From contig JAVYQJ010000012.1 in the NCBI GenBank assembly GCA_038731975.1, positions 1 to 36,248 on the forward strand: a stretch of DNA of 36,248 bases, given 5' to 3'. The notes below the pieces were generated by a model, which saw nothing but the letters and a program-made list of their open reading frames with translations, was not told the DNA's origin and ran no database searches. Positions 4,716-30,638 of the stretch are shown here, one piece after another. A program made the position numbers and the translations under genes. The DNA is from Thermofilaceae archaeon (GTDB lineage Archaea > Thermoproteota > Thermoprotei > Thermofilales > Thermofilaceae). Position 1 is the first letter of the stretch; each line of letters opens with the position of its first letter.

Positions 4716-5158
4716 GCGCTGAACAGCTTAGGGATCCGGTGAGAGCTGCACTAGACATTTTTATGACAATAAGGGGTGAGCTCGAGCGAAGAGCTAAAAG
4801 TGAAAAGGAAAAAACTGATTTTGGCCGCGATCTGCGTGCACGTGCGAGAGACGCCCCCGAGCTGATAGAGGAAGTAGGCTTAGTGCCGGCTCTGAGCTTC
4901 TTTTACAGCAAGAGTGATAAAATCGGTTACGAATTGATGCTTAAAGCAATCCTGCTTTACCTGCAAAGAATTCAAATCGTACCTTCAAATATCAATCTCG
5001 ATGCTATATTAGCGGGGGAAAGGAATACGGATGCCATGATCGACCTGCTAAGGGATCTTCTCAAGTGGAGCACCGTCGTCGTGCCGATTTTGAGACCGTT
5101 TCTTGTTGAGTTTAAGCGACTCTGTGAGGCCACCTGGAGCGAGAGGGGCTCCTCATGA
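4712..5158 (+). CDS. cmr5: Cmr5 (Cas11 small subunit of the type III-B complex)
   Basis: Cmr5 is a small all-helical subunit that lies along the minor filament of the Cmr complex between Cmr2 and Cmr3/Cmr6. The 148-residue product has the family hallmark RARDAPELIEEVGLVPALSFFYSK, followed by the helical segment KAILLYLQRIQ. It starts at ATG 4712, overlapping the cmr4 stop (ATGA), and its own stop overlaps the cmr1 start in the same way. From about 4740 the DNA becomes visibly richer in A and T than cmr4, a shift that continues through cmr1. Confidence 0.9.
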   Translation: MSAEQLRDPVRAALDIFMTIRGELERRAKSEKEKTDFGRDLRARARDAPELIEEVGLVPALSFFYSKSDKIGYELMLKAILLYLQRIQIVPSNINLDAILAGERNTDAMIDLLRDLLKWSTVVVPILRPFLVEFKRLCEATWSERGSS

Positions 5159-6621: not shown

Positions 6622-6631
6622 GGTGAAAGGG

Positions 6632-7624
6632 ATGAAGGGTCCTAGACCATCACCCACTGCTGGGCGGGCCGAAAGAGAAAGAGCACGAGTAGAGGGTGAG
6701 GAGCAAAGAAGGTTCAAAGTCCCGAAGAAACTACTTGGGGAACTGCGGGAACTGCCTAAGTTGAATGTAGATACGAACTTTCTCTCTTACGTTGTCATGA
6801 TCGGGTTTGGAATCCTGCTTGAGGGAGACGATGATAGAGCCGCTGATAAGAGAGTTCTCCTCGAGATGCTCTGCTCCGTCCTCAGTCAGTTTTCATTCAG
6901 CCAAGTGCAGAAGCATCTCGAACGCGTTAGAGAGGCGCTGCTGTTGAACGGTTATAGCCTGAAGGTGTGTAGGATGGTAACGACTACCAGGACTGTTGTG
7001 GGCGCTGGGGGCTCTTTTGGGAAAGTTCCATTCGAGCTCGGGTTATCCTTTGATCCCATACTTAATGTTCCGTATATTCCGGCTTCCGCGCTTAAGGGGG
7101 CTTTTAGGCACGCGCTCGAAGAGTTGAGAGGGAAGGATCTTGCTAGGCTACTCTTCGGAGAGGAAGGAGAGGTAGGGGTTGTGGGAGTTACGGATGCGTA
7201 TCCCGTAGGGGTCTTGAGAGAGCTTCAGAGTAGATCCGGAGGAGGTGCTGCGGTCCGCTTGCTGGAGCCTGATGTTCTATCGCCGCATTACCCTGAGACG
7301 AAGAAGCTGGAAACGGAGCTCGATGTTGAGCCGAAACCCGTGGTTTTTGCCGCGATAGCGCCCGGTGTTGTCTTCGAGTTTTACCTTTACTATAACAGAG
7401 GTTTGAGGGCTAAACTGGGAGGAAGGGTTGCGGACGCTAGCAGCGAGCTTAACTCGAAGAAACACATTTTCGAGGGGGACCTTGCCGCTGCGAGTAATGT
7501 GACCGTAGACGTATTACCCTCCCTCGACCTCGCAGTACTCTACGCTCTCTCCCGTGGTGTTGGAGCTAAGACGTCCATAGGTTACTCGCGATTCGAGCTT
7601 CTCGAGTACAGGACGGTGAGGTAA
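6632..7624 (+). CDS. cmr6: Cmr6 (Cas7-group RAMP of the type III-B complex)
   Basis: Cmr6 is a Cas7-like subunit next to Cmr1 at the head of the Cmr filament. Family signatures are LGLSFDPILNVPYIPASALKG, LFGEEGEVGVVGVTDAYPVG, the highly characteristic EPDVLSPHYPE, and PKPVVFAAIAPGVVFEFYL, with the C-terminal RAMP loop SRGVGAKTSIGYSRFELL. ATG 6632 is preferred as the start because GAGGTG at 6620-6625 gives a Shine-Dalgarno site 6 nt upstream; GTG 6623 is in frame three codons earlier. The first 40 residues are charged and probably disordered. cmr1 ends about 10 nt upstream and cmr2 starts 2 nt after the stop. Confidence 0.93.
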   Translation: MKGPRPSPTAGRAERERARVEGEEQRRFKVPKKLLGELRELPKLNVDTNFLSYVVMIGFGILLEGDDDRAADKRVLLEMLCSVLSQFSFSQVQKHLERVREALLLNGYSLKVCRMVTTTRTVVGAGGSFGKVPFELGLSFDPILNVPYIPASALKGAFRHALEELRGKDLARLLFGEEGEVGVVGVTDAYPVGVLRELQSRSGGGAAVRLLEPDVLSPHYPETKKLETELDVEPKPVVFAAIAPGVVFEFYLYYNRGLRAKLGGRVADASSELNSKKHIFEGDLAAASNVTVDVLPSLDLAVLYALSRGVGAKTSIGYSRFELLEYRTVR

Positions 7625-7626
7625 CC

Positions 7627-10600
7627 ATGAGTGAGGAGCTTTTCAAGCTTAAGATCGCCGCGCTGCTCCACGATCCTCCGGAAAAGCCCTGGCTGCTGCT
7701 GAGCATGGAGCCGCACGAGGAGGCGGCGCTCGAGTACGTGAGGGAGCTAGCCGGCTTCGGGGATATTCCGAGAGAGGTCAGGGAGGCTGATAGGCTGGCT
7801 TCGAGCATCGACAGGTACGTCCTCTCGATCATAATGGGCGACAGGTACGTCCGGGGGTTCATGCCCTGCAGGAAGCTAGTCCTGAAGAACCCGATCAACC
7901 CGCTCTTCCAAGTGGAGCTGCCAGAAAAGCTGCCCGCGGAGCAGGTTAAGGGATTCAGGAAGAGGCTCTTCGATGCCTTAAGCAAGGTTGCGGATGCGAA
8001 GTTGAGGTACCTGCTGCTCTACGCGCTCTACGAGGTTCTCTGGATCGACCAGGACCTACCTGTAGGGCCGGCGGAGACGAGGGTCCCCACCCACACGGTG
8101 TTCGACCACAACTACGCCACTGCCGCGGCCCTCAACTGGATGGTGAGCGACGCCAGGAAGGGTCTTCTCGTGGGGCTCGACGTGGCCGGCGTGCAGGCCT
8201 TCGTGGCGTCGAGCAGGAAGCTTAGGGACGCGTGGGTGTCCAGCTACCTCGTCTCGGCGCTGGTCTGGTACACCATCCTCCCGCTAGTGGAGCAGCTGGG
8301 GCCCGACGTCGTGGTGACCCCCTCGCTCAGGCTCAACCCGTTCTTCCTGCACTGGCTCTCCCACAAGGTGCGTAGCTGTCCGAAGGAGGAGCTTCCACCC
8401 AGCTTACCTAACGAGCTGGATAAGGCGACGAAGTACGCGTACATGGGGGATGAGTACCTGCTGGAACTGTACAAGGGCTTTTGCGTCCCACCGTACGCTT
8501 GCGTGCCCGAGAGGGCGACGCTCATCCTCCCGCCCGCGGAGAGGCTCAGGGGCATCCTCGGGGATGATGTAGCTTCAGCTCTCGAAAGCAGGTTTAGGCA
8601 GGGCTGGCGCAGCCTTTGGCAGGCGATCCGCGCGTACGCGGAGGAGAGAGCGAAGGACGAAGAGGGGGAGCTTGTTTGGAAGTTCATCGCTAGGGTCTTC
8701 AGCTACTACGATTGCGAGTACGGGAGGACCCTGTTCCACGAGGTGCCGCCGCTCCTCCTCAGGGTGGAGGTGGTCGAGGTTGAGCTGGAGGGGCAAGAGT
8801 ACTGGCGTAGCTACAGCGAAAAGTACAACGAGCTGGCTTCGAGGCTCGCTCAGCGCAAGTACAAGAGGGTCGAACCTGAAGCTGAGCTGCAGGTTGGCCA
8901 GCTCACGGAAGCGGCCTTCGCTAGGGGCGTAGGCTTCCCTCGCCGCTCGCCCAGGGGCTTCGAGTACTGCACCTCCTGTGGAAGGCTGCCGGCCCTCCTC
9001 GTGCTACCCTCGGGGGAGGGCGAACGCCCCGAAGAGGAGGAGTACGGCTTCTACGTGTACGGTGCCATGGCGAAGGGCTGGGAGAGCACCGAAATCGAGG
9101 CACGGTGGAGAAGGATTAGAGATGCTGCGGCTCACGGAGAGAAAGAGCCGGAGCTCGATAGCTTCACCCAATGGCTGGAGAACTACAAAGTTAAGATTGA
9201 TCTTCGGGGCCTCAAGACGATCTTCGCCCCCGGAGAGAGGCTCTGCGCCTGGTGCTTCGCGAAGAGGGTCCTCAGCCTCGAGCCACGACTACTCAACGTA
9301 CTACTCTTAGGCAAGGATGAGGAATACGCTAGACGGCTCGCCAAGGAACCCCGGACACCTCAGATAGCTCGCTTCGGCTTCCCATCCACACCCGACGTGG
9401 CCTCACTTCGGCTTAGGCAGAGGCTCGTCGAGAGCGTAAGTAAGGGGGTTCTCCCAGCGCAGAGGCTCCAAGATCAGCTGGAAGTTTGCTTCCCCCTGTT
9501 CCTCGAAGTTCTCAAAGCAGCTGCGAGTGAGGCCAGGCCCTGGCTCGCCGAAAGGAAGCTGGAGAGGAAGATCAGGGAGTTGAAGCTGAGTAAGGATCTG
9601 GAGATCCTGCTGCTCGTGCTCCTTAAGGCGGACGCCGAAACGCTCTGGCTCTCCAGCGACAAGGAGTTGAGGACCGGCTGGAGCTCGCTCATACGCGAGT
9701 GGGGTCTCGCTGGCTACCTGTGGAGCTACTACGGCATCGTTCGGGCCGACGGCGACAACATCGGTAAGCTGCTCGTAGGCGACGTTTCGGCGCTGTACGG
9801 CCTGGAGGACGAGCCTGCGAGACTGAGAACCTTGCTCGCAAGCATCTTGAGGGCTGCTGGATCTTGCGAGTTCGAGAAGCTGCTTGCCGCGCTACTGGAG
9901 GAAGATGAGGAGAGGTGGCAGGCTGCATTGGAACAGTGGTCGGTGCTCCTCTCGGAGGAGCTGAACGAGAGCGAAAATGAGGTTAGAAGGCGGCTGACCA
10001 GCGCCAGGCAGGTGGTAGAGGGAATTCGGCGCAAGTGCAAGATTCCCGTGAGCATATCCTACCACTTCTCGATCAGCAGCGCCCTATCTAGAATTGCAAT
10101 CCTCGAAGCGGTGGCGATCTCGAGGCTGGGGGGCTTCATCGTCTATGCCGGCGGAGACGATTTGATGGCGTTCGCCCCAGTCGACTCTCTGGCAAGGCTA
10201 GTCTACGTTAGCAGGCGCATCTTCGCGGGAGCCCCCCTCGATAAGTGCTGCGTCGAGACGACGCCTGACGGTGAAGTGCGAGCTTCTACGGCGGGAGAGC
10301 AGCACGAGTCTGAGCAGCCGTGCTTGACCAGCAGTGGAATACGAGTTTCGCCGGAAAAAGGCTTTATCAGGGTGAATAACGCCTGGCTGCCAGCCCTGCC
10401 ATGCGTCGGTAGGAGCTACTGCGCGCTGCTAACTCACTACCTTTACCCGCTGCACCTGGCGCTCAATCGCGCGGGCTCAGCTCTTGAAGATGCGAAAAGC
10501 AGGGTTCGCACTCGCGTGTATGGAAAAATTCAGGAGGTACTCGTGAAGGACACTGCCGCTTTCGTCTACGTGCCGAGAGGGGGCGTGGAACTCTCCTTCG

Positions 10601-11058
10601 TTCCGCTGACGCTGAACAGGGGCTTCCACGTCGCGGAGGGGAGCGTTAGTGCTGAAGACTACCTGTGCGAGGTATCCCTGACCGCCAAGGCCGTTGACGG
10701 CCTGCTCCGCTCGGTATCCCCGCTTCTCGGCGAGCAGCTGTACTCCACCAGCCTCCTCTACGACGTGGAGAGCGTGAACAACAACCTCGTGGAAGCCGCT
10801 AGGCGCCACGTGGAGCTTGTTGGAACGCTGATGGACTTCGTCCTTAAGAGGAACTTGGCGCGTGGGAGGGAGAGAAGAGAGGCAGGAAGGATCAGGTGGA
10901 ATGAACTCTCGGAGCTCATCTGCGAGCTGGATAAGCATGAGAGCATGAAGTTCAGGACTAGCGTAGTGGAGGCGGAGACGGGAGGGAGAGAGGAAGCTGC
11001 GCACATTTTCACGGCTATCGTTCGCTCCGCGAGGAATCTGAGGGGTGGGATGCGGTGA
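7627..11058 (+). CDS. cmr2: Cmr2 / Cas10, large subunit of the type III-B complex (HD nuclease plus cyclase)
   Basis: Cas10 senses target RNA binding and then cuts DNA with its HD domain and makes cyclic oligoadenylate with its Palm domains. In this 1143-residue protein the HD motif AALLHDPPEKPW (His15-Asp16) opens the chain, with ADRLASSIDRYV following. Zinc-type pairs CTSC (Cys448/451) and CAWC (Cys540/543) lie in the middle. The first Palm-type motif VRADGDNIGKL (Asp708, Asp710) and the active cyclase motif YAGGDDLMAF (Gly842-Asp845) are both intact. The N-terminal Palm is degenerate, as usual. Both activities are therefore predicted to be functional. It overlaps cmr3 by GTGA. High GC, unlike cmr5 and cmr1. 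Confidence 0.96.
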   Translation: MSEELFKLKIAALLHDPPEKPWLLLSMEPHEEAALEYVRELAGFGDIPREVREADRLASSIDRYVLSIIMGDRYVRGFMPCRKLVLKNPINPLFQVELPEKLPAEQVKGFRKRLFDALSKVADAKLRYLLLYALYEVLWIDQDLPVGPAETRVPTHTVFDHNYATAAALNWMVSDARKGLLVGLDVAGVQAFVASSRKLRDAWVSSYLVSALVWYTILPLVEQLGPDVVVTPSLRLNPFFLHWLSHKVRSCPKEELPPSLPNELDKATKYAYMGDEYLLELYKGFCVPPYACVPERATLILPPAERLRGILGDDVASALESRFRQGWRSLWQAIRAYAEERAKDEEGELVWKFIARVFSYYDCEYGRTLFHEVPPLLLRVEVVEVELEGQEYWRSYSEKYNELASRLAQRKYKRVEPEAELQVGQLTEAAFARGVGFPRRSPRGFEYCTSCGRLPALLVLPSGEGERPEEEEYGFYVYGAMAKGWESTEIEARWRRIRDAAAHGEKEPELDSFTQWLENYKVKIDLRGLKTIFAPGERLCAWCFAKRVLSLEPRLLNVLLLGKDEEYARRLAKEPRTPQIARFGFPSTPDVASLRLRQRLVESVSKGVLPAQRLQDQLEVCFPLFLEVLKAAASEARPWLAERKLERKIRELKLSKDLEILLLVLLKADAETLWLSSDKELRTGWSSLIREWGLAGYLWSYYGIVRADGDNIGKLLVGDVSALYGLEDEPARLRTLLASILRAAGSCEFEKLLAALLEEDEERWQAALEQWSVLLSEELNESENEVRRRLTSARQVVEGIRRKCKIPVSISYHFSISSALSRIAILEAVAISRLGGFIVYAGGDDLMAFAPVDSLARLVYVSRRIFAGAPLDKCCVETTPDGEVRASTAGEQHESEQPCLTSSGIRVSPEKGFIRVNNAWLPALPCVGRSYCALLTHYLYPLHLALNRAGSALEDAKSRVRTRVYGKIQEVLVKDTAAFVYVPRGGVELSFVPLTLNRGFHVAEGSVSAEDYLCEVSLTAKAVDGLLRSVSPLLGEQLYSTSLLYDVESVNNNLVEAARRHVELVGTLMDFVLKRNLARGRERREAGRIRWNELSELICELDKHESMKFRTSVVEAETGGREEAAHIFTAIVRSARNLRGGMR

Positions 11059-12092
11059 GCGGGGTCTCAGTCTACCAGGTTAGGGTAAAGCCGCTGGAGC
11101 CGCTCATGCTGAGGGGTCCCGGCGAGTTTGACCCCTCGGCTCGCGGGGTGAGCGCGTCCGCCGTCTCGCAGGCATTCCTCGCCCCCAGCACCGTCGCTGG
11201 GCTCTTAACGTCCCTCCTCCTACAGCAGCCGGTGAAGCCAGTTTCAAGCTGGATGTGCTACGTGGAGAGAATGCTCAATCTGCTCAACGGGCTGGGCATC
11301 CGATGGATCCGCGGCCCCTACCTGGTCCGCGACTCCACCCCCTACGTTCCGATCAGGGTGGGTGGCGACTTCTTCTTCATCGATCTGAAGCAGCTCGCCT
11401 GCCACTTCAGGCAAGAGCTCGCCAAGATCGAGAGGGGGGATCTCGAGGACTTCATGAATAGATTGCGGCAGGAGCAAAACCGCGCAGAGCCCCGCCTGCA
11501 GGAGCGGGTGGGGATAGCCTTAACCGCTCGAGAAGGGTTGAAAGCCGCGAGGGAGGGCTTCCTCTACACTGCAAGCTACGTCTCGGTCCACTGCGATTAC
11601 ATAGCCGTCGAGGTCGGCTTGGACAGCGCAAGAGCGCCCAATCTGCTGGTCCGGCTCGACGGGGCTGCGGCAGCGGTAGGCGGTGAAAGTAGGATCGCCA
11701 GGCTCGAGGTACGGAGTGTTGACGAAGGCGTTGTAAAGCCTATCGCTAGCGCGGGGTTCAAGGAGGGCTACGCGGTGCTCCTCTCGCCGCTCATTCTTCC
11801 TAGCCCGCTGAGAATCAAGAGAGAGGGTGGAAGGGTTAGCGTGGAAGTGGACGGTGGGTGCCTCTTAGAACTGGTCACCGGCGCTGCAGGCCTCAGGGGG
11901 TTAGGCTTCAGCATTGCTGAGAGGTCGAGGAAGCCGATGTACCCGGCGATACTCGAGGGATCGATCATCAGGCTCTGCGAGGGTCAATGCTACACGAAGG
12001 ACATGGGCCCCTACGCGAACGTACCGAAGAGGACGTCACTCATCGAGCTGCTGGGGAGGACGGGCTACGGGAGCCTCATCGAGCTTGGGTGA
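11055..12092 (+). CDS. cmr3: Cmr3 (Cas5 group, binds the crRNA 5' handle)
   Basis: Cmr3 is the Cas5-like subunit that pairs with Cas10 at the foot of the Cmr complex and holds the crRNA 5' handle. The N-terminus VRVKPLEPLMLRGPGEFD followed by FLAPSTVAGLLTSLLL is the family signature (plepl..rg...f......s..pp.t..Gal.s.l). The mid region KAAREGFLYTASYVSV and the C-terminal segment around KPMYPAILEGSII also match. At 345 residues the length is normal. The start is GTG 11055, overlapping the cmr2 stop as GTGA, and the stop TGA 12090-12092 overlaps the GTG start of the decayed csx1 in the same way. Confidence 0.92.
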   Translation: MSGVSVYQVRVKPLEPLMLRGPGEFDPSARGVSASAVSQAFLAPSTVAGLLTSLLLQQPVKPVSSWMCYVERMLNLLNGLGIRWIRGPYLVRDSTPYVPIRVGGDFFFIDLKQLACHFRQELAKIERGDLEDFMNRLRQEQNRAEPRLQERVGIALTAREGLKAAREGFLYTASYVSVHCDYIAVEVGLDSARAPNLLVRLDGAAAAVGGESRIARLEVRSVDEGVVKPIASAGFKEGYAVLLSPLILPSPLRIKREGGRVSVEVDGGCLLELVTGAAGLRGLGFSIAERSRKPMYPAILEGSIIRLCEGQCYTKDMGPYANVPKRTSLIELLGRTGYGSLIELG

Positions 12093-13784: not shown

Positions 13785-14022
13785 GCGGCCACCAACTCGC
13801 CACCCCCCACCCAATGTCAAACCAACATCCCCCAGAACGCCGAAACCCTACCTCAAGACCACACCTTAACATCCCCGCATAGGAAAGCACACTTCAAACC
13901 CGATCCCCCCGCTTGAAGCACCCGTTACAGCCAACCGCGAAACCACTCCTCAAGACCACAACCCCACCATACCGCTAACATCCACGTCCCAAACAAAGCA
14001 GCATACCCTCCTGCCTCCCACT
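13785..14022. other. Strongly C/A-rich, G-poor interval distal to the CRISPR array
   Basis: The plus strand here is almost all C and A with few G. It holds an imperfect direct repeat: a block beginning CGAAACCCTACCTCAAGACC at 13841 recurs at 13938 as CGAAACCACTCCTCAAGACC, both followed by CACA and later by TAACATCC. Because the array is transcribed on the minus strand, this segment lies downstream of the last repeat and would appear as G/U-rich RNA. No coding gene is seen. Confidence 0.55.
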
Positions 14023-15115
14023 CTTTCAATTCTTTCCCAGCTGCTTCGCACAAGGACTACCTTTGCTACAAAAAGGAGTTCTTGAACTTTCAATTCTTTC
14101 CCAGCTGCTTCTACCTAGCTATGGCGAGCGTGCTCTGGAAGATCGCCCGCTTTCAATTCTTTCCTAGCTGCTTCGAAGAGTTACTAAATTCCTTCATTCT
14201 AAGCATTGGGGACCCCTTTCAATTCTTTCCTAGCTGCTTCGCATTCACCGCCGCAGGGCGGGAGAAGACGTGCCTGCTCAACTTTCAATTCTTTCCCAGC
14301 TGCTTCGTGCACGCTGATGAAGGTGGACTACGAGAGCAAGACCGTCCTTTCAATTCTTTCCTAGCTGCCTCTTAAAGGATTTACTTGCTCTCGCCCGTCG
14401 CCAGGGAGTGACTTTCAATTCTTTCCTAGCTGTTTTCTGCCGTCGTCGATCTTGGACGGGGGGAGCTGCGGATCCCCTGTGTCTTTCAATTCTTTCCTAG
14501 CTGCTTCAGGAGGAGGCGGCGCGGATGGGCCGCATCTTTGTCGACCTCCGGGGCTTTCAATTCTTTCCTAGTTGCTTCACGGAGATAAAATTCCCCCTGT
14601 CTAAGGGGATTATCGCAGCGTCTTTCAATTCTTTCCTAGTTGCTTCAATTAAAGGCATGGCTGCGGGAGCACCCTAAAGCGCTAGCCTTTCAATTCTTTC
14701 CTAGCTGCTTCCTAACGCATTGAGCTATACAGAGCTCGTCGAAAGGGGAAGGACTTTCAATTCTTTCCTAGCTGCTTCTTGCGGAAGACGCTGCCCTATG
14801 GGGTTTAACAACGTTCATCGCCTTTCAATTCTTTCCCAGCTGTTTCCCCCCTCCCGGCTGGGAGGGGGTACTGCTGCTGAGGGCGCGCTTTCAATTCTTT
14901 CCCAGCTGCTCCCTAAAGAGGGTCGGTGTAGCCGACCCAACCAGAGCAGCTATCGATTTGCCAATGCTCTTTCAATTCTTTCCTAGCTGCTTCAGGAGTC
15001 TAGCTTTGGGGGGTACGCCCCCCAGTGGATTTACGCTGCGTTCTTTCAATTCTTTCCCAGCTAGCCGTTCGAGCTTGCCGTCAGCGCCCTCTTTCAATTC
15101 TTTCCTAGCTGCTTC
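14023..15115 (-). CRISPR. CRISPR array, 17 repeats of 25 nt and 16 spacers, transcribed on the minus strand
   Basis: Repeats start at 14023, 14087, 14150, 14216, 14282, 14347, 14412, 14483, 14554, 14622, 14687, 14754, 14822, 14888, 14969, 15043 and 15091. On the plus strand each begins with the invariant CTTTCAATTCTTTC and ends with a variable part, consensus CTAGCTGCTTC. The reverse complement therefore ends in ATTGAAAG, the classical 5' handle of archaeal crRNAs, which fixes transcription from right to left. Spacers are 38-46 nt for the first thirteen, then 56, 49 and 23 nt. Repeat 16 is damaged (its last part is CAGCTAGCCG) and the spacer next to it is short. Repeats 6, 7, 9, 10, 13 and 14 carry point changes, all in the variable half. 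cas6 lies about 0.9 kb to the right, and the two type III operons flank the locus. Confidence 0.97.
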
Positions 15116-15165
15116 CGTGGGGGTTTTTCGTGTGGTGGTTTTTAAGGTTTGTCTTCTTGAATTTC
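15116..15165 (-). promoter_or_regulatory. CRISPR leader with TATA element next to the first repeat
   Basis: Read on the minus strand, the sequence before the right-hand repeat contains CTTAAAAA (15139-15146) about 27 nt before the first repeat base (15115). This is the archaeal TATA-to-start-site distance, so transcription would start at about the leader-repeat junction. The segment is richer in A/T than its surroundings, as is usual for leaders. How far the leader extends to the right cannot be told. Confidence 0.6.
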
Positions 15166-16042: not shown

Positions 16043-16861
16043 TCACGGTGGTGCTGGTTCGAGGGGGGTGATTTCGACGTGTCCGAAGCCGATGCTTCGG
16101 GATTTGCCGAGGCCGAAGCGTTCGGCGAAGGCTAGTAGCCGCTTGGCGTCTTCAGCCATGTAGCTGTTGGGGTCGAGGAGCTCGTAGGCTACGTAGCCGG
16201 TGAAACCCCGCTCTATGGAGGGGATGCCGTTCTTCACGGCGTAGAGGACGGTGGCGGGCCTAACGCTGTAGTCGATCTCGCAGAGAGCCCTTATGCCCCA
16301 CCCGTATATCTCGCTAAAACTCCTCTCGACCAAGCCGACACCCTGAAGCTTCAAGTCGTAGGCGAGAAGGCCTAACGCCAGCGGCAAATCGGGGAGGAGC
16401 TTGTACCTCCTCCTCAAGCCCAGGGCTTTGAGCAGCTTACCGCGACCGGGTACGGGGAGGAGCGTGGGGGTGAGGAACCTGACGGTGAACTTCCTGGGTA
16501 GGTTCAGCTTTAGCTCTCTCACGTCGGCGACCTCCACCTGCTCCACCTTCGCCACCATCTCCGCAGCCCCGAACTGGAAGATTACGCTCGTCTCCCAGCT
16601 CCCGGGGGGCTTCTCGGTGAGGAGCGAGAAGCGGGCTTGCAGCTTCTCACCCTCCTTCGCGGTTATGATGCCGGGCTCCCCGTAGAGCTTGTAGAGGGGC
16701 TTGCCCTCCCGGAACAGCACGCTGAAGGACGCCCTCCTACCCAGCCGCGGCTCAACGCCCGTCAACCGGTAGAAGGCTGTTCTCGTCACCTTGCTCGTGA
16801 AGGGCGGTAGCACACAATCCTGCAGAGGGATTATCGTCAACCAAACAGTGAGCGCGTACAC
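16043..16861 (-). CDS. cas6: Cas6 CRISPR repeat endoribonuclease
   Basis: Cas6 cuts the array transcript inside each repeat to leave the 8-nt 5' handle on crRNAs. The 272-residue protein ends in the defining glycine-rich loop RFGLGKSRSIGFGHVEI (Gly250, Gly252, Gly258, Gly260), preceded by AKRLLAFAE, with the two-RAMP architecture usual for archaeal Cas6. VKNGIPSIERGFTGYVAYEL is the conserved region before it. A catalytic histidine cannot be assigned with certainty, which is normal for this variable family. The start is GTG 16859-16861, set by a TATA element 22-30 nt upstream. As the only cas6 in the window it probably serves both type III systems. It points toward the array and diverges from the winged-helix/ATPase operon. 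Confidence 0.9.
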   Translation of the reverse strand: MYALTVWLTIIPLQDCVLPPFTSKVTRTAFYRLTGVEPRLGRRASFSVLFREGKPLYKLYGEPGIITAKEGEKLQARFSLLTEKPPGSWETSVIFQFGAAEMVAKVEQVEVADVRELKLNLPRKFTVRFLTPTLLPVPGRGKLLKALGLRRRYKLLPDLPLALGLLAYDLKLQGVGLVERSFSEIYGWGIRALCEIDYSVRPATVLYAVKNGIPSIERGFTGYVAYELLDPNSYMAEDAKRLLAFAERFGLGKSRSIGFGHVEITPLEPAPP

Positions 16862-16883: not shown

Positions 16884-16891
16884 GATATAAG
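16884..16891 (-). promoter_or_regulatory. TATA box of cas6
   Basis: On the minus strand this reads CTTATATC, centred about 26 nt upstream of the GTG start codon at 16861. It supports a leaderless cas6 transcript and this start codon. Confidence 0.7.
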
Positions 16892-17037: not shown

Positions 17038-17050
17038 TTTATATATTAAA
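17038..17050 (+). promoter_or_regulatory. TATA box of the winged-helix/ATPase operon
   Basis: TTTATATATTAAA lies 19-31 nt before ATG 17069, the spacing for a leaderless transcript. The divergent cas6 TATA box is about 150 nt away. Confidence 0.78.
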
Positions 17051-17068: not shown

Positions 17069-17779
17069 ATGAGGTTAGCGGTTCCGCCTGCGAGCTTTAG
17101 GGAGCTCTACCTCGTCGCCAGGTACGGTCCCGACAGGGTTGGTCGAAAGGGTAAGGCGATAGCCAGATTTCTATCGCGTTTGGGCCTCAACGGGTTTAGC
17201 GGCGGCGAGGAAGAGTTCGTCGAGTCTCTCCTCTCCTCGCTGGACAAGCTGCGCGTCATGGAGCTCCTCGGTGAGGCGTCAAAGCTGGGGTTCCTCAACC
17301 ACATGGTGCTAGCGGAGGTTGCGGGAAGGTACGGCATCAACCTCTCCGCCTCTTCCGCGCGGAACCTGTTGAAGCTGCTCAGGGAGCTGGGCTTGGTAAC
17401 CCGGTTGAGGAGCTGGCTTGTCTACACCCCCTCTCTGGAGAGGGCCGCGCTTGCTGTGCTCTACTCGAGGGGTGAAGCAAAGGTGAGCGAGCTTGAGAAG
17501 CTCCTCGGGGGCCGGGTTCGCGAATCCCTGCTGAAGCTTTGGGCTGAAGGGCTCGTCGAGATTGAGGGTTGTCCACGATCACCGCTTAAGGGCAAGCTCG
17601 ATCTGCCCCGGGACCTCGCGAAGCATGGGCTTGAGTACGATGAAGAGCTGATCGCCTCCATGGGGCTGCAGGGGCACCCAAGGCTGGAGAAGTTCGTTGA
17701 GCGGGAGACGGGGAGAGTCAAGTACGCGATCCTGCTGAGGGGGGATGACAGGGTGAGGATCGTTGTCCCGCCGGGTTGA
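17069..17779 (+). CDS. Unknown protein with two predicted winged-helix domains
   Basis: The 236-residue protein matches no family that I can name. Two segments look like winged helix-turn-helix units: about residues 75-115 (MVLAEVAGRYGIN, then SARNLLKLLRELGLVTRL) and about residues 123-165 (ALAVLYSRGEAKVSELEKLL, then VRESLLKLWAEGLVEIEG). The N-terminal 70 residues are helical and charged. The C-terminal part (VKYAILLRGDDRVRIVVPP) looks like beta strands. No CARF motif is seen, so it is not an obvious Csa3. Its ATG has a strong TATA box 26 nt upstream, and the ATPase gene starts 4 nt after its stop, so the two are almost certainly co-transcribed. A DNA-binding partner or regulator of the ATPase is an inference. 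Confidence 0.7.
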   Translation: MRLAVPPASFRELYLVARYGPDRVGRKGKAIARFLSRLGLNGFSGGEEEFVESLLSSLDKLRVMELLGEASKLGFLNHMVLAEVAGRYGINLSASSARNLLKLLRELGLVTRLRSWLVYTPSLERAALAVLYSRGEAKVSELEKLLGGRVRESLLKLWAEGLVEIEGCPRSPLKGKLDLPRDLAKHGLEYDEELIASMGLQGHPRLEKFVERETGRVKYAILLRGDDRVRIVVPPG

Positions 17780-17783
17780 AACC

Positions 17784-19595
17784 ATGCTAAAGGACCTGGA
17801 GAGCAAAATAGAGATTCTGAGAAAGAACCTTGATGAGGATGAGCTGGAAAAGGTGGTGGCCACGTGGAAGCAAGGACGGTACCTTGACCTACCTCTTGAG
17901 AGCGCAGAGCTCCTTCTCGTTAAGGCTGACTACGTCCGCGAGCATGTGGAGCAAGCGGTTCGAAGGCTCTTGAGGCACCTTAGCTCGCGCTACGGTGGAG
18001 TGGACATATTCTCGATACGATCCCCGCGCCATGCCTACGGGACAGGGAAGTCCCAGATGGCCGTCCTCATCCGTAATCAGCTGAGGGATCGGGGAATCCC
18101 GACCGAGTACCTGGCCGTCGGCGTCAGCAGTGTGATGAGCGGGGACTTCAGGAGCCGCCTGTGGGGGTACAGCGGGCTGAAGGAGGCTGTAATCTTCATA
18201 GACGAGGTCGATCTTCTCTTCTCCCCAGAGCTGAAAGAGGAGGATCAGAGGAAGCTGCTGGAGGCGTTCGCGAACATTGTGATTGAGTACAGCGAAAGCC
18301 TCTCGGCGCGCGGCGATGTGCATCAGGCTCTCGTGCTCGTGCTGAGCTACAACGCTGAGCGGAGGATCGAGGAGTTCGCGTCGAGCCGGCTGAGTAGGAG
18401 GCTGATGCAGGTGCTCCTGAGCGTTGATATCCCATTGTCGAGGGAGGATTTCCGGGAGCTGTTGACGACAGTTTCGGCCCTTTACGCCCACCGTCACAGG
18501 TTGAGCGGCCTAGCGCTTTGGCCACTGGTATGCTTCATTAACAGTTACACGAGCTTCCTCGAGAAGGGTTTTAGGGACAGGTCGATCGGCGAGATCGTAA
18601 CCACCTCTATGAAATACACGCAAATGTTCTGTGAGGGGCTTTCAGCGGTGCGCAGAGTTTCGGAGCAGAACGTCATAGCGATGTGCGGAATACTGCAAAG
18701 GCCGTCCCCACAGCTCGGCTCAGTTGTAGAGCAGATAGTCAAGGAGATTTTGGCCAAGCTCGTCCCTAGGTATGAGGTGGAGCTGCCGGAGCAAATGCTT
18801 TCGGTGACCTGTACTTTCTCCAGCAGTAGTATCGACGTAAGCGGGTTTAGGACAGACTGCTTTTACAGCATAAAGCTAGGAGCGATCGAAGTGGGGAAGT
18901 GCCTCATCGAAGTCACAGCGGCCCGCGAGCTCGATAGCAGGAAGCGGGAGCAGCTGGAGAGGTTCGCCAGCAGGTACCCCACTCTGCTCATACACCTCCT
19001 TGAGGGTTTCGAGAAACTGACGGATTACGAGGAGGAGGGCGACTTGTACACCATCAGGATTGACCTTGAACCCTTCAAGTACCCGGCGGCGCTCCGGGAG
19101 TTTGCGAGGGAGCAGGCAGACGCCTTGGCCTACGAGCTGGCGAATGATCTCAAGCTAGGCGACTCGATCATAGCTTTCCTGAGGAGGAACTCTATCTCTC
19201 TGGCATACAGCTGGCTCGCTCAGCAGAAGGTGAGGGAGGCGCGGGCAGCGCCGACTCGCGCGGAGGCGGAGAGGAAGCAGGCGGAGGCTGTTGGGCTGAT
19301 GCTGCGAAGCTTCATCGAAAGGCTCGGTTTCGCAAGTGTTACGAAGAGGAGAAAGGATACCGTGAGGAACTGGTTTGCCGAAATCCTGAGATCGTCCCTC
19401 GGTTACATTGAGGATTCCGTGCTTGAGTTCCTGCTCATCGAAACGATGAACGGTTGGGCAAGAGAAGGACTCTGCCGCCTCACGGCAAAAGAGGTGCATA
19501 GGACGGACTTGTGGAACGATGAGCGCGCGCTAAAGATAGCCTATGACGTCATTACACCAGTGCTACAGAGTAAAACACGCTCACTCGACATGTAG
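17784..19595 (+). CDS. AAA-type P-loop ATPase of unknown role, with a possible nuclease-like C-terminal region
   Basis: The 603-residue protein carries Walker A in SPRHAYGTGKSQ (Lys89 and Ser90 counted from ATG 17784) and Walker B in AVIFIDEVDLLFSPE (Asp140, Glu141). SYNAERRIEEFASSRLSRRL follows, with arginines in sensor or finger positions. This is the plan of archaeal AAA/Orc-like or conflict-system ATPases, not of a transporter. After about residue 340, FRTDCFYSIKLG followed by KCLIEVTAARELDSRKREQL vaguely resembles a PD-(D/E)xK nuclease core, but the lysine is not in the usual place. The C-terminus is helical. ATG 17784 is preferred over TTG 17763, which would overlap the preceding gene. 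It forms a two-gene operon with the winged-helix protein. Function unknown. Confidence 0.78.
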   Translation: MLKDLESKIEILRKNLDEDELEKVVATWKQGRYLDLPLESAELLLVKADYVREHVEQAVRRLLRHLSSRYGGVDIFSIRSPRHAYGTGKSQMAVLIRNQLRDRGIPTEYLAVGVSSVMSGDFRSRLWGYSGLKEAVIFIDEVDLLFSPELKEEDQRKLLEAFANIVIEYSESLSARGDVHQALVLVLSYNAERRIEEFASSRLSRRLMQVLLSVDIPLSREDFRELLTTVSALYAHRHRLSGLALWPLVCFINSYTSFLEKGFRDRSIGEIVTTSMKYTQMFCEGLSAVRRVSEQNVIAMCGILQRPSPQLGSVVEQIVKEILAKLVPRYEVELPEQMLSVTCTFSSSSIDVSGFRTDCFYSIKLGAIEVGKCLIEVTAARELDSRKREQLERFASRYPTLLIHLLEGFEKLTDYEEEGDLYTIRIDLEPFKYPAALREFAREQADALAYELANDLKLGDSIIAFLRRNSISLAYSWLAQQKVREARAAPTRAEAERKQAEAVGLMLRSFIERLGFASVTKRRKDTVRNWFAEILRSSLGYIEDSVLEFLLIETMNGWAREGLCRLTAKEVHRTDLWNDERALKIAYDVITPVLQSKTRSLDM

Positions 19596-25384: not shown

Positions 25385-26242
25385 TCAGCCGCGGAGCAGT
25401 TTTAAGAAATCTTCCAGCTTCACTGCCGGTGTCTTGAGGGGGTTCGCCAGCCCAACTCCGCCCTTGTCCTCCGCTAGCTTCACGACGTGGAACTCCGCGC
25501 TTTCGAGCTGGAGGAGGCCGAGGCCCGCGCTCTTCCGGCCGCCGATGCTGAGCCCCACTTCCTTGACGGCTTCCAGCGTTGAAGCTAGCAGCTTGGCTGA
25601 GGGCGAGCCGAGCCTCTCCACCTCCCCGACCATCACGAGTGGTACCGACACCTCAGCCTCTGTGGTCTCGACAGTATAGAGGACCCCCTCCTGCACTTTA
25701 AGGTCCTTCCTGCTGATGCCGACACCCGGCCTGCGCTGGGTTTGGGCGGTTAGGAGGGTGTCGAGGAAGCGCACGCTGCCGGCTCTCACCTGGTTGCCGA
25801 AGAGCTTCCCGATTGGGCAGTGGTAGGCGAGGTACTCGACGAGCATCCAAGCCGGGTCTTCGGGAGCCCTGAGCTCCTCCTCGCTGTAGCCGATGCTGAG
25901 GAGCACGCGCTTCACGTCATCGGGCTTGAAGGGCGGGGCTTCCTCACCTCTCAACGCCCTCCCGAAGCCTTCGAGCAGGTCCTTCACGCTGCTCTTCGGT
26001 TCGCTGGACAGGGCTACCCTCTCCACGGCCAGCTTCTCGATCTCGCTCAGTGGCATCGAGGGTGCCAGCTTCTCGGCTATCGCCCTGAAAGCCCCCTTCC
26101 AGGTGGAGGAGGGTACGAGGAGCCTCCCGAGGCTCCTCAGCCTCAGCGCGTAGAGGACGTTGGCCTCCCTGGCTCCACCGACGTGCACGGGTGTTCTAGC
26201 GGTGAACTGCAGCTTCCCGACGAACTTCACCTCGTACGCCAC
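25385..26242 (-). CDS. Cas7-like RAMP protein, last gene of the type III-D operon
   Basis: The 285-residue protein is a RAMP. It has the first strand LQFTARTPVHVGGAREANVL, then LVPSSTWKGAFRAIAEKL (the P.SS.KG..R motif), HCPIGKLFGNQVRAGSVRFL (a C..G.LFG version of the zinc or fold loop of the other Cas7 subunits), and the glycine-rich loop GLSIGGRKSAGLGLLQL. The aspartate that cuts RNA in Csm3-type subunits is absent; the aligned region reads EANVLYALR. So it is probably a non-cleaving backbone or capping subunit. The GTG start 26240-26242 follows directly after the csx10 stop (TAG then GTG). Confidence 0.85.
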   Translation of the reverse strand: MAYEVKFVGKLQFTARTPVHVGGAREANVLYALRLRSLGRLLVPSSTWKGAFRAIAEKLAPSMPLSEIEKLAVERVALSSEPKSSVKDLLEGFGRALRGEEAPPFKPDDVKRVLLSIGYSEEELRAPEDPAWMLVEYLAYHCPIGKLFGNQVRAGSVRFLDTLLTAQTQRRPGVGISRKDLKVQEGVLYTVETTEAEVSVPLVMVGEVERLGSPSAKLLASTLEAVKEVGLSIGGRKSAGLGLLQLESAEFHVVKLAEDKGGVGLANPLKTPAVKLEDFLKLLRG

Positions 26243-27223
26243 CTACCTCACCCCCAGCAGGCTGGTGTACTCTTCGAGCGGTATGAGGGAGTTCAAGCCG
26301 ACCACCTTGAAGTCCGCCACGCTGATAGGTAGGCCGGTCCTCAGCGCAGCGGGGTCGCCGCCTGCCTCGGCCAGCACAAGGCTGCCGGGCCTGGCCAGCC
26401 TGACGATCGGCCTCATCTTCCCCTGAAGGATGTCCCAGCCGAGCTGCATCGTGATCTCCCTCCCCACCACCCTGCCCACCTTCAGGCTCTCCCCCCTCCA
26501 CCGGATCCACTCGACCGGGGCTAGCGGGGAGAGGGCAATGAAAGCGCCCCTCTCGGGCACGGGTTTCGCCTCCACGGGGGTTAGGGTGAGGTCGGCCCAG
26601 CCGAAGCCCCTCGACTGGCCCCTGCCCACCGCGACTTCGAGCGAGCTGGGGAGGTTGAAGTTGTCCGGCGCGGCCACCCAGGCCCAGAAGGCGGAGCCCT
26701 CGGCGATCGCCTCGTAGTCGAAGAGGAGCCCCTTCACCGCCGACGCCCTCTCCTTGCTGATCCCCACGGACGTGGCCCTGAAGGTCCTCAGCCTGTAGCT
26801 CCTCAGCCTGCCTCCCTCCGCGTAGACGAAGCGCCCGTGGAGAGGCTCCATCGGCCCACCGTCCCTCGGGCAGACCAGCGGGAACCTGAGCCCGCCTCCC
26901 TGCTCAAGCGCCCTAGCGGCCTCCGCGGTCGCGTCCACCCTGTGGTCGCAGCGCTTGCACGCCGCCATGAAGGGCGTTGCCGGCAGCGTCCTCCTCCCGT
27001 TGGCGAGCGGGAGGCCCGGCGACGCGAGGAGCGTGGGCTCCTGCGCCTCCCTCCTGAGATCGTCCCTCCCCAGCTTCCCAGCCCTGTAGAGGGCCGTGAG
27101 GATCGCCCCCCTCAGCGTCGATCCGGGGATGTAGCTGTGCGGCCTCACGTAGCCCCTCTCAGTCCTCCTCGCCGTGACGATGGCGGGGCTCTTCAGCACC
27201 AGCCTAGCCTCGTAGAGCCTCAC
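26243..27223 (-). CDS. csx10: Csx10-like Cas5-group RAMP of the type III-D complex
   Basis: Csx10 is the Cas5-type subunit of III-D complexes and should bind the crRNA 5' handle beside Cas10. This protein begins VRLYEARLVLKSPAIVTARR, then YVRPHSYIPGSTLRGAILTAL, with a zinc-type CKRC at FMAACKRCDHR and a later CPRDGG. TFRATSVGISKERASAVKGL and YEAIAEGSAFWAWV match the Csx10 pattern, and VGRGQSRGFGWADLTL is the glycine-rich RAMP loop. The start is GTG 27221-27223, which overlaps the upstream stop as GTGA; the in-frame extension upstream is low in complexity. The length is 326 residues. Confidence 0.85.
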   Translation of the reverse strand: MRLYEARLVLKSPAIVTARRTERGYVRPHSYIPGSTLRGAILTALYRAGKLGRDDLRREAQEPTLLASPGLPLANGRRTLPATPFMAACKRCDHRVDATAEAARALEQGGGLRFPLVCPRDGGPMEPLHGRFVYAEGGRLRSYRLRTFRATSVGISKERASAVKGLLFDYEAIAEGSAFWAWVAAPDNFNLPSSLEVAVGRGQSRGFGWADLTLTPVEAKPVPERGAFIALSPLAPVEWIRWRGESLKVGRVVGREITMQLGWDILQGKMRPIVRLARPGSLVLAEAGGDPAALRTGLPISVADFKVVGLNSLIPLEEYTSLLGVR

Positions 27224-27879
27224 GGGCCCACCACCCCCACCCAGAGCCAGGATCTGAGCTCCGAGAGCAGCTGCCTCCACTCCTCGCCCACCAGGGCGTC
27301 GAGGAGGCCCTCGTCCTCCAGCCTCGCGTCCACCATCGACCGCCTCCCGAACCTCCCGGTCCGCAGCTCGGCTACGGCAAGGAGGAGGAGGGGCAGCAGA
27401 TCCCTCCCCTCGCCGATCAGCCTCAACTCCCCCTTGAACTCCACACCGGGCGGTAGGTGCTCCATCGAGTACAGCTTACCCCGCTCAGCCGTTAGCGTCC
27501 TATCGTTCAGCGAGACCCTCCAGATCACCTCCGTGGCCGCTTCACCCACCAGCTTGAAGTCGCTGACATGCAGGAGCGCACCTTCTCCGCCCGGCCAGCC
27601 GAAGAGCTCGCAAACCGAGCAGGCGCGCCCCATCGCCCTGTGCGCTTCAGCGATCCTCGAGGGCTCCACCTCACCGCAGCTGGTGAAGCCGTAGTGGGCG
27701 GCGACCCTGCTGGCTGAGCTGCGCAGCGCCCCCTTCACGCTGCTCCCCGGAATGTACAGCTCGTAGCGGTCTCCGACCAGCTTCCTGGCGTGCACCACGT
27801 CGGCCCCCATCACCTCGGGGATGCCCCAGCCGACGGTCAGCAGCGTTACAGACCTGAACCTCATGCCGATCCTGATCAT
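27220..27879 (-). CDS. Cas7-like (Csm3-type) RAMP of the type III-D complex
   Basis: This 219-residue RAMP reads RFRSVTLLTVGWGIPEVMGA then DVVHARK, followed by YELYIPGSSVKGALRSSASR. The cysteine loop is ACSVCELFGWPGGEGALLHV, then SDFKLVG. Asp27 in MGADVVHARK sits where Csm3 proteins carry the catalytic aspartate, so it may cut target RNA. It lacks a clean C-terminal glycine loop (RTGRFGRRSM). Start ATG 27877-27879 overlaps the cas10 stop as ATGA, and its own stop overlaps csx10. It is one of five Cas7-type proteins in this operon. Confidence 0.88.
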   Translation of the reverse strand: MIRIGMRFRSVTLLTVGWGIPEVMGADVVHARKLVGDRYELYIPGSSVKGALRSSASRVAAHYGFTSCGEVEPSRIAEAHRAMGRACSVCELFGWPGGEGALLHVSDFKLVGEAATEVIWRVSLNDRTLTAERGKLYSMEHLPPGVEFKGELRLIGEGRDLLPLLLLAVAELRTGRFGRRSMVDARLEDEGLLDALVGEEWRQLLSELRSWLWVGVVGP

Positions 27880-30638
27880 CGCGCACCACCCCCGGCGAGC
27901 TTGATCATGTTGATCACGTCGGCGAGCGGAGCCACACCGCCCCCCGGCCGGTCGAGCAGCGTCCTGCCTATCAGCTTGGCTAGCGCCCCGTAAGCCTCAG
28001 CGAGCTCCTCGCCCACCTCCCTGGACTGCTGCCTGAGAGCGTAGATGTACAGCTTCTCCCTCCAGTACTGGGAGTCGAGCACCTGGCCCCAAGCCCGCAT
28101 AACAGCGTTCCGCAGCGCCCTCAGCCTCGCCCGCTCTTCTCGACCCAGCACTTCGCCCTCCGGCCTCGAGGCGAGGTAGGCCCTCCCTAGTGCCAGCTTG
28201 TGGAGCTCGAAGCTGCGGGGGTTGCTCCAACCAGCCAGCTCGAAGACCGTGCTGAAGAGCGTCTCCCACGCCTCCGGCTGCTTCCCGGGTCTGACGTCGA
28301 TGAGGTACGGCTGCGCGCTGTCCGCGCGCCTCTCGAGCCTCCTCCTGGCGATCTCGGCGGCGCTTAACCCCATGGCTGCTTCACAGAACCTGTCGGAGAT
28401 GTAGCACAGCCGCTCAACGGCGCTGCTGCCGGAGGGTGAGCCAGACTCGTAGATGTCGAACACGAGGGCGCCGACCTGGCCGCTGGCACCGCCCATCTTC
28501 TTTACACAGTCCTTCGCGGCACGGAGGAGCTCGCCCGCGCAATCGATGAGCGACCAGACGCTCATCGCGACCGGCCCCGCGGCGACCGCCACCGAGAGGC
28601 CTCGGGCGAGGCCGAGCTGCCTGCAGAACTCCTCGGCGATGTAGTGGGCCAGGATCGGCGCAGCCCACGAGGGGGCGAGGATCAGGCCGTCGTCGCCGCC
28701 CATGTAGATGGTCCCCAGGTAGACCTGCGAGACGGCCTTCTCAGCCTCGTCGCTGCCGGCCACCTCCCTCACCCCCTGGTAGAGCGCCTCGAGCGCCCTG
28801 AGGTAGGCCCTCTTGATCGCTACGTCTATGCGGAAGCTCCTCTCGACGGCGTCGGTGAACGAGATGGCCTCGAGCATGAAGGACCCCATCATGTTCCCAT
28901 CGAACTTCACCACGGCGTAGTTCCTCTTCTGCACCCCCTTCTCCAGCTCCTCGAAATCGTGGCCGGCGATGATCTCCATGATCCTCTTCGAAGCGTCACC
29001 CCACCCCCTATCGAACGCCTCGCTCGGGCTGAAGCGTCGCCCGGCCACCTGGATTTGCGACTCCCACTTAGCCCTGAAGTGGAACTCGGAGCCCAGCTTG
29101 TAGAGCCTCGCGCAGGTTTCGCAGGTGTCGACCGGCCCCTCCGGCGTCTCCGCCTTCTGCACCGCCGGCGCGCTGTAGCAGAGTCGGCAGAGCCTCTCAA
29201 CCGGTTGCGCGCTCAAACCGCCCAGCTCGACGCTGTGCTTCTTCAGCGACATAGCTTGGGCCAGTAGGTCGGCAGCTAAGGCGTAGCTGCTCGTGAAGGG
29301 TTGCCTCACGCAGTAGATCCTGACGCCTCCCACGAGCCTCTCATACCCTCCGACGAGCTGCTCGACGCGCTCGGCCAAGCTCTCGGGGAGCAGCATCAGC
29401 AGGGTGCCGCCGCCCGAGTAGATCACGGCCTCTGGCGGGAGGCGCACGCCTTTGGTTCTGAGGTACATCGGGAGGTGGGCGTGGACGATGAGGTCGATCA
29501 GGTAGCTCGCCGCCGAGACAACCCTGATCTCCTGGCTCCTGTAGATGAACTCCTGCACGGAGCCGATATCGATCAGGACGAGCGAGAGCCCCGCGGGCGC
29601 AGCACCTTCGCGCCCCACCAGCTCCTCCCTGCCCAGCGCGGCAACCTTCTCGAGGAACTCCTGCGTGAGCTCCCTAACGGGGTCCTCGAGAGCGACGCCC
29701 TCCCTCCTCAGCAGCTCGATACTCCTGTAAGCCCTCCGCCAGAACTCCCAGTCGTCCCTTGAGACCCCGAGTAGCTTCTCCATCCTGGCCAGCTTCTCCC
29801 CGAGCAGCTTATCCACAAGCTCCGCCAAGCGGTCGGCGGCCGCTGCCAGCCGGTCGGCCTGGTTCAAGCTGCTCGCGGCGATGTGGTGCTCCCTGACGAG
29901 CCTAGCGATCGCCTCCACCTCGTCGTTGGGGAGCAGGCCGCCCAGGAGTTTGCGCGCGAGATCCTCTGACGCTTCGTAGTGCCTCTCTGGGTCCACAGCC
30001 TTACCGAGGTCGTGCAGAAGGGCGGCCAGCCTCACCCTCGCCTGCTGGAGCTCGTCAGCCCCGCGGAGGTGCTCGAGGGCCCAAGCCAAGGCCGATGTGA
30101 GGAGGGAGTGCGCCACGAGGCTCGAGGTGTTGAAGCCCGGCCTCGTGTCGGCGGGGAACTTCAGCCAAAGCCCGAGAACCAGCTCCGAGGTTCTCTCCTC
30201 GAAGAGCTCCTCGATCTGCCTGAAGTCCGCGCTCCGCAGGTTCGCCACGTACTCGGCGAAGATGTAGGGGTTCTCCACCGCCTCTTTAACGGCCCTCCTC
30301 TCCATGAGGCCCTCGGGCAGGAGCAGGTAGAGTGCGTTAGCCTTCAGCGGCGTCGGGGCCACGGGGGAGGCCTCCATGATGAGAGGCGACCTCAGCAGGA
30401 GCACAATCGCGTCCGCCGTCTTCCAGAGCAGCTCCCGCTCGCTCACCCCCGCCCGGCGCCAGGCGCCGACGAGGCGCTCCAGCAGGGTTCTCAGCAGGGA
30501 TAGGAGCTCCTCGAACTCCCTACGGTCGCCGTCGGTGACACGCCTCACGCTGACCGGCTGGTCCCTCTCCCACACTGGGACGCGCAGCCCCCTGTACACC
30601 GGGTAGGGCTCCCTAAACTCAAGCTTCAAGATGCTCAA
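27876..30638 (-). CDS. cas10: Cas10 (Csm1-like) of the type III-D system with HD and GGDD motifs
   Basis: The 920-residue large subunit has a canonical HD domain: His177 in LVAHSLL, His209-Asp210 in LAALLHDLGKAVD, His251-His252 in VREHHIAAS and Asp262 in NQADRLA. The first Palm is degenerate (IYSGGGTLLMLLPE). Zinc pairs CRLC (Cys484/487) and CETC (Cys506/509) follow. The second Palm has VKFDGNMMGSF (Asp580) and the cyclase motif IYMGGDDGLIL (Gly647-Asp650). So both DNA cleavage and cyclic oligoadenylate synthesis are predicted. III-D Cas10 proteins are often described as lacking HD, so its presence is notable. The start is TTG 30636-30638 or TTG 30627-30629; both overlap or adjoin the previous gene end. 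Confidence 0.95.
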   Translation of the reverse strand: MSILKLEFREPYPVYRGLRVPVWERDQPVSVRRVTDGDRREFEELLSLLRTLLERLVGAWRRAGVSERELLWKTADAIVLLLRSPLIMEASPVAPTPLKANALYLLLPEGLMERRAVKEAVENPYIFAEYVANLRSADFRQIEELFEERTSELVLGLWLKFPADTRPGFNTSSLVAHSLLTSALAWALEHLRGADELQQARVRLAALLHDLGKAVDPERHYEASEDLARKLLGGLLPNDEVEAIARLVREHHIAASSLNQADRLAAAADRLAELVDKLLGEKLARMEKLLGVSRDDWEFWRRAYRSIELLRREGVALEDPVRELTQEFLEKVAALGREELVGREGAAPAGLSLVLIDIGSVQEFIYRSQEIRVVSAASYLIDLIVHAHLPMYLRTKGVRLPPEAVIYSGGGTLLMLLPESLAERVEQLVGGYERLVGGVRIYCVRQPFTSSYALAADLLAQAMSLKKHSVELGGLSAQPVERLCRLCYSAPAVQKAETPEGPVDTCETCARLYKLGSEFHFRAKWESQIQVAGRRFSPSEAFDRGWGDASKRIMEIIAGHDFEELEKGVQKRNYAVVKFDGNMMGSFMLEAISFTDAVERSFRIDVAIKRAYLRALEALYQGVREVAGSDEAEKAVSQVYLGTIYMGGDDGLILAPSWAAPILAHYIAEEFCRQLGLARGLSVAVAAGPVAMSVWSLIDCAGELLRAAKDCVKKMGGASGQVGALVFDIYESGSPSGSSAVERLCYISDRFCEAAMGLSAAEIARRRLERRADSAQPYLIDVRPGKQPEAWETLFSTVFELAGWSNPRSFELHKLALGRAYLASRPEGEVLGREERARLRALRNAVMRAWGQVLDSQYWREKLYIYALRQQSREVGEELAEAYGALAKLIGRTLLDRPGGGVAPLADVINMIKLAGGGAR

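Follow-up and report, generated by a model that had tools for sequence, protein, structure and literature searches.

The closest published architecture to the gene pair analysed here is that of the HerA/FtsK capture systems, in which an Orc/CDC6 ATPase carries an inactive REase between its AAA+ core and a C-terminal wHTH; HerA/FtsK and a separate active REase are core genes of these systems, a multi-wHTH protein is sometimes present, and related Orc/Cdc6 genes with disrupted Walker B exist (PMC10853773). An AAA+ module and a PD-(D/E)XK domain also occur together in one protein in DUF1703 (PMC1913061), and arCOG03166, entered in Table 1 of PMC4158269 as a likely defence or plasmid gene, is an AAA+ ATPase fused to HTH and RecB nuclease domains. 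The pair, hereafter genes A and B, is best read from its predicted structure as a minimal ATP-dependent, DNA-targeted nuclease cassette. Its features in the window (the whole stretch of DNA that was analysed, 36,248 nucleotides from a Thermofilaceae archaeon, genome G000) and those of its immediate surroundings are as follows.

14015-15120, CRISPR array of about 17 repeats with the core CTTTCAATTCTTTCCTAGCTGCTTC, between the type III-B genes and cas6
16043-16861, minus strand, cas6, the divergent neighbour, Cas6 by Pfam and PADLOC; given as a neighbour, not as a member of the cassette
~16884-16890, minus strand, TATA-like box of cas6, ~26 nt before the cas6 start
~17038-17047, plus strand, TATA-like element of the A-B pair, TTTATATATT, read from the sequence, ~26 nt before the A start
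17069-17779, plus strand, gene A, 236 aa, ATG start; HTH/winged-helix partner protein
17784-19595, plus strand, gene B, 603 aa, ATG start; AAA+ ATPase, PD-(D/E)XK-like and wHTH protein
17877-18653, plus strand, predicted AAA+ core and lid, B residues ~32-290 (model, fold search, motifs)
18708-19001, plus strand, predicted PD-(D/E)XK-like domain, B residues 309-406, motif III Lys replaced by Thr (model, residue conservation)
19257-19583, plus strand, predicted C-terminal winged-helix-like domain, B residues ~492-600 (model secondary structure)

Likened by description to the capture systems, B shares the domain order of their Orc/CDC6 ATPase and A resembles their multi-wHTH partner in kind. The pair differs in having two genes only, and in an inserted domain that keeps the residues E-D-ExK-Q, or ExT with a possibly relocated lysine. 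HerA/FtsK is generally absent, lying near the pair only in genomes G651, G639 and G523; no HerA-family gene was matched on the window's contig (C12), and no separate active REase gene was recognised beside the window pair. By analogy, the pair may work like the HerA/FtsK capture systems, though we do not file it as a member. B and DUF1703 have in common an AAA+ module followed by a PD-(D/E)XK domain, the acidic residue of motif I and the glutamine of motif IV; DUF1703 differs in its aberrant Walker A (RPRRFGKS), and we know of no obligate wHTH partner gene for it. The Pfam models of DUF1703 and PDDEXK_9 matched none of 25 homologues of the B family at E≤0.01. With arCOG03166, B shares, again by description, the combination of AAA+, HTH and nuclease domains in a single archaeal protein; the difference is a separate obligate partner gene, of which the part of PMC4158269 that lists arCOG03166 makes no mention. 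The archaeal Orc1/Cdc6 initiators resemble B in their AAA+ fold, for which the fold match is A. pernix ORC2, and in their C-terminal winged helix, whereas B has an extra nuclease-like domain, an obligate partner and a patchy distribution, and the Pfam domains of the Cdc6 lid and Cdc6 C-terminus match none of the 25 homologues (E≤0.01).

Both open reading frames are present as the preliminary description had them, and it was right also about the ATPase with intact Walker A (YGTGKSQ) and Walker B (FIDEVD) and about the tight spacing of the two genes: by the ORF reading of the window, 4 nt separate the stop codon of A from the ATG of B, an alternative TTG start of B at 17763 giving 610 aa. The TATA-to-start spacing of ~26 nt is consistent with a leaderless A-B transcript. 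The pair had further been assigned a promoter divergent from cas6. The cas6 gene is indeed divergent, but it is preceded by its own TATA-like box, so that the arrangement is one of two back-to-back promoters ~150 bp apart and not of one that is shared. The surroundings, described earlier as an island of CRISPR and toxin-antitoxin genes, prove to be just that, and richer. A type III-B set (Cmr4, Cmr5, Cmr1, Cmr6, Cas10, Cmr3) is followed by the CRISPR array, cas6, the A-B pair, a flavin amine-oxidase-like gene, a HEPN/nucleotidyltransferase pair and a second type III set. The amine-oxidase neighbour was rejected as a partner of the pair, its homologues in relatives having other flanks and no A-B pair. 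Two type III effector gene sets, at 3594-12092 and 25385-33345, thus lie apart from each other on opposite strands of this one 36-kb contig; the second Cas10-like protein (27876-30638) bears an HD domain, and the first Cas10 has no HD match. A 213-aa ORF at 12169-12807 matches the Csx1 CARF domain only, is shorter than most of the matched Csx1/Csm6 profiles, and may be truncated or a stand-alone CARF protein. At 2244-2660, an ORF of 139 aa with matches to aspartyl protease models (PF13650, E 4e-10; gag-asp_proteas) adjoins a HEPN gene.

The earlier view that neither protein of the pair is a known cas accessory accords with searches of Pfam, NCBIfam, PADLOC and PDB sequences, which matched the window pair to no named system, Pfam recognising the AAA core of B only; a known defence system is rejected on these profiles, and no CARF domain was found in A or B. 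The domain make-up of B is more interesting than had been recognised, for the nuclease-like domain at residues 309-406 and the C-terminal winged helix had both been overlooked. In the model of B, built from a 25-sequence alignment (pLDDT 89.8, pTM 0.83), the AAA+ core contains Walker A at residues 85-91 and Walker B at residues 138-143, with G88, K89, D140 and D143 invariant in the 25 B homologues and E141 kept in 22 of them. The core aligns with Aeropyrum pernix Orc2 (1w5t; Z 13.9, 236 residues, rmsd 3.6; Foldseek E 1e-4) and, at a Z of 15, as high with NSF D2, so that the Orc/Cdc6 placement denotes general fold similarity. Kinship of the ATPase to a known replication or segregation family, named beforehand as an observation that would speak against a conflict system, is accordingly seen at the level of the AAA+ fold only (Orc/Cdc6- and NSF-like). 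Weak similarity to BrxC_BrxD, probably a reflection of the AAA+ core, occurs in 5 of 25 B members (best E 4.5e-4); with no match in the window protein and no BREX gene recognised in the window, identification of B as BrxC/BrxD of BREX was rejected. A helical stretch is predicted between the 309-406 domain and the C-terminal winged helix, the latter comprising helices (H) and strands (E) in the order H492-514, E521-523, H524-539, H544-560, E564-566 and E570-573.

The predicted secondary structure of residues 309-406 fits helix-strand-strand-strand-helix-strand with one extra strand, and the conserved positions are a Glu on helix one, an Asp preceding the hairpin at the centre, Glu-x-Lys/Thr on the strand that follows and a Gln on the helix after it, residues that fit the pattern of PD-(D/E)XK motifs I-IV as laid out in PMC1913061. 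Outside one degenerate Asgard group, every one of the 21 members covering these positions retains E316, D358, E376 and Q390. The members divide at position 378: K378 (ExK) is present in 14/14 members of one group, and the other group, to which the window protein belongs, has T378 (ExT) together with a lysine in an [R/A]K[K/R]xQ helix in all seven covered members. Loss of the lysine from motif III, with its migration proposed, is described for DUF1626, DUF506 and DUF790 (PMC1913061); by analogy, the nuclease domain of the ExT clade may still be active via a relocated lysine. From predicted topology and residue pattern, we infer that residues 309-406 constitute a PD-(D/E)XK-like nuclease domain. 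Searched by itself as a sequence profile against Pfam and PDB, this domain hit no PD-(D/E)XK family, and profile comparison with Hjc was not significant, its score of 16.0 standing against 9.7-14.3 for shuffled-column controls (P 0.058) and 18.8 for the unrelated A profile; the best segment of that comparison had motif III in register. The VIA-align and Foldseek lists for B were filled by the AAA+ domain, which makes the missing nuclease folds there uninformative.

The degenerate Asgard group just mentioned (G574, G575 and the second copy of G405) has DNxD in place of the Walker B DExD and no longer carries the nuclease residues. Its genes (L067:11563-13305, L069:1571-3289 and L070:8872-10647) retain the pairing with A and a locally conserved synteny, and possibly represent a non-catalytic derivative.

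Gene A had been described as encoding a double winged helix. The model (pLDDT 94.2) bears this out for the C-terminal part (residues ~116-236), a single clear winged helix, but the N-terminal half is predicted to be helical and HTH-like. Foldseek of the A model gave no match with E≤0.001, and VIA-align returned only common MarR/Zalpha-type winged helices with Z below 7. DNA binding by A is plausible on this predicted fold.

A and B are an obligate two-gene cassette. At 26 loci from Thermofilaceae, Wolframiiraptor, a Korarchaeia-like class and Asgard archaea, each of the 26 A genes immediately precedes B in the same orientation, the two ORFs overlapping in 24 of the 26 loci (longest-ORF calls); B in locus L071 was recognised by whole-genome match and by eye, and not by the HMM used for the other loci. 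The same order throughout indicates more than chance pairing. In the Korarchaeia-like class, which comprises 26 genomes and is probably Korarchaeia, the A profile had 13 matches, all immediately 5' of B; in the two genomes that carry B but lack A, B lies at a contig end. The pair occurs in 15 of these 26 genomes, incomplete MAGs included. Elsewhere it behaves, in most lineages, as an accessory gene: full-length matches are found in 3/81 genomes of the window's class, and the pair in 4/398 sampled genomes of the window's phylum and in 7/227 of the phylum of the Asgard MAG. Whole-genome search for B relatives, found in G006 and G009, places the pair in 3/17 Thermofilaceae, and a scan of named genomes added Wolframiiraptor, one Asgard MAG and two Thermoproteota MAGs. 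Two copies are present in G522. G641 has, a few kb from its intact pair, fragments of a second, broken B (L054:1-2500), and the Wolframiiraptor B (L017:4797-5871) is interrupted by an in-frame stop beyond residue ~287 and then runs into the contig end, reflecting a pseudogene or an assembly error.

The closest relative of the window pair is found in G006, with 57% identity for A and 43% for B. By maximum likelihood, the tree of A has its main clades in common with that of B, and the two largely agree. Because both nest the Thermofilaceae member G009 inside the Korarchaeia-like clade, beside G638/G642, the pair is likely to have moved as one unit from the Korarchaeia-like class into G009; the member of G000, the window genome, belongs to a different clade.

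Based on this evidence, A and B are proposed to form a DNA-acting complex in which A is the dedicated HTH/winged-helix partner and B is an Orc/Cdc6-type AAA+ ATPase with the PD-(D/E)XK-like domain placed between its ATPase/lid module and its C-terminal winged helix. A and the winged helix of B would recognise a DNA site or structure. Binding or hydrolysis of ATP would load B on DNA or remodel it there, in the manner of Orc/Cdc6-type ATPases, after which the bound DNA might be nicked or cut by the nuclease-like domain. In the window's clade, cutting would proceed via the lysine moved from motif III to the next helix (K387), or else would have been lost. The most likely biological role of such a complex is that of an accessory anti-invader nuclease, restriction-like or serving DNA capture, rather than that of a part or regulator of CRISPR, and we give an accessory DNA-targeting nuclease cassette with this role an even chance of being correct. 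The obligate pairing, the likely transfer as a unit and the conserved nuclease residues with their putative ExT compensation, as in the DUF families cited above, argue for it, as does the assignment of a closely similar architecture to counter-invader systems (PMC10853773). Defence-type genes stand beside some pairs: type III genes in G000 and G009, a type IIG restriction-modification gene in G407, a TrlF-like ATPase in G564, a HerA-NurA pair adjacent in G651 and G639, HerA with a NurA-like ORF and an IetA-like AAA protein nearby in G523, and PIN genes in several loci, all these being individual cases; enrichment against expectation was computed for RAMP genes. The G407 pair (L068:2569-9074) adjoins, besides the type IIG gene, a spore-photoproduct-lyase-like radical SAM gene. 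Against an anti-invader role stand the non-significant proximity to RAMP genes (detailed below), the profile searches and Hjc comparison that did not place the nuclease domain among PD-(D/E)XK families, the failure to find the pair in phage, plasmid and viral collections, and its frequency amid housekeeping synteny in the Korarchaeia-like class, which would suit a core function. A more specific proposal, advanced tentatively as a possibility below even, is that TACK and Asgard archaea possess a minimal immune system, complete in itself, built on an Orc/Cdc6 nuclease: a HerA/FtsK-free two-gene relative of the capture systems whose catalytic lysine has moved in one clade and which has become near-core in the Korarchaeia-like lineage.

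A core function is taken up by the explanation that ranks next, and which we regard as rather unlikely, namely that the pair serves repair, recombination or chromosome maintenance as a loader-nuclease of Orc/Cdc6-like type, passed on vertically within the Korarchaeia-like class, with occasional transfers. The frequency of the pair in that class (15/26) would be as expected, and the loci there lie in locally conserved, largely housekeeping synteny, subgroups having PEP carboxykinase, MFS/SDR or ABC genes as neighbours; flanks elsewhere include lactate permease, ABC transporters, PEP carboxykinase, MFS/SDR, UbiD/UbiA-like and elongation-factor-like genes, some of them named by eye. Housekeeping contexts free of defence neighbours, foreseen at the outset as evidence against a conflict system, are in this sense partly realised, many loci lying among metabolic and transport genes. 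The HerA and NurA neighbours in G651, G639 and G523 would also fit DNA maintenance, but HerA-family genes number 3-10 per genome, so that adjacency to them is a weak functional link; suggestive as it is in these three genomes, it was rejected as such. The very patchy distribution outside the Korarchaeia-like class, the likely transfer into G009, the two copies in G522, the extra fragments in G641 and the Asgard subgroup without the Walker B Glu and nuclease residues all sit poorly with a housekeeping function.

Patchiness and likely horizontal transfer, together with an Orc/Cdc6-like ATPase and a wHTH partner, are features that a mobile-element pair would also show, acting as a helper in transposition or replication or in plasmid maintenance, hitch-hiking, and domesticated in some lineages. 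Weak TniB similarity in two members of the alignment (E ~0.002) points the same way. Relatives of the pair were, however, absent from phage, plasmid and IMG/VR viral collections, which may hold few relevant archaeal elements, and no integrase or transposase is among the commonest neighbour families of the pair. We consider this origin improbable.

Control of the adjacent type III CRISPR locus was the other role raised in the preliminary description, and the survey of pair loci disfavours it. Of the 21 pairs in genomes with RAMP genes, only 2 have such a gene no farther than 10 kb away, where 0.38 would be expected (P=0.054); one is the window locus from which the question arose, and the other is in G009. 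In all, 17 of the 19 RAMP-bearing pair genomes carry the pair away from RAMP genes, and seven further pair-bearing genomes have no RAMP match. A regulator or accessory whose winged-helix protein controls cas6 or the array is thus very improbable, despite the divergent cas6, the array and two type III sets in the window and the type III genes within 10 kb of the G009 pair, this last belonging to a different clade from that of G000. Of the two-component defence module suggested earlier, the conserved two-component unit stands, at 26 loci, and the tie to CRISPR and cas6 does not. The CRISPR setting of the window pair is probably incidental, and adjacency to cas genes in a single genome says little about function.

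Lastly, Orc/Cdc6-type ATPases are being recognised more and more in conflict systems besides replication. An accessory anti-invader role of A and B, if true, would add to these a two-gene cassette with a nuclease signature from thermophilic TACK and Asgard archaea, small enough for reconstitution in vitro, and such a cassette would serve to examine the way in which a nuclease is guided to DNA by an initiator-type ATPase. The split between ExK and ExT members provides a natural test of lysine migration in PD-(D/E)XK sites.
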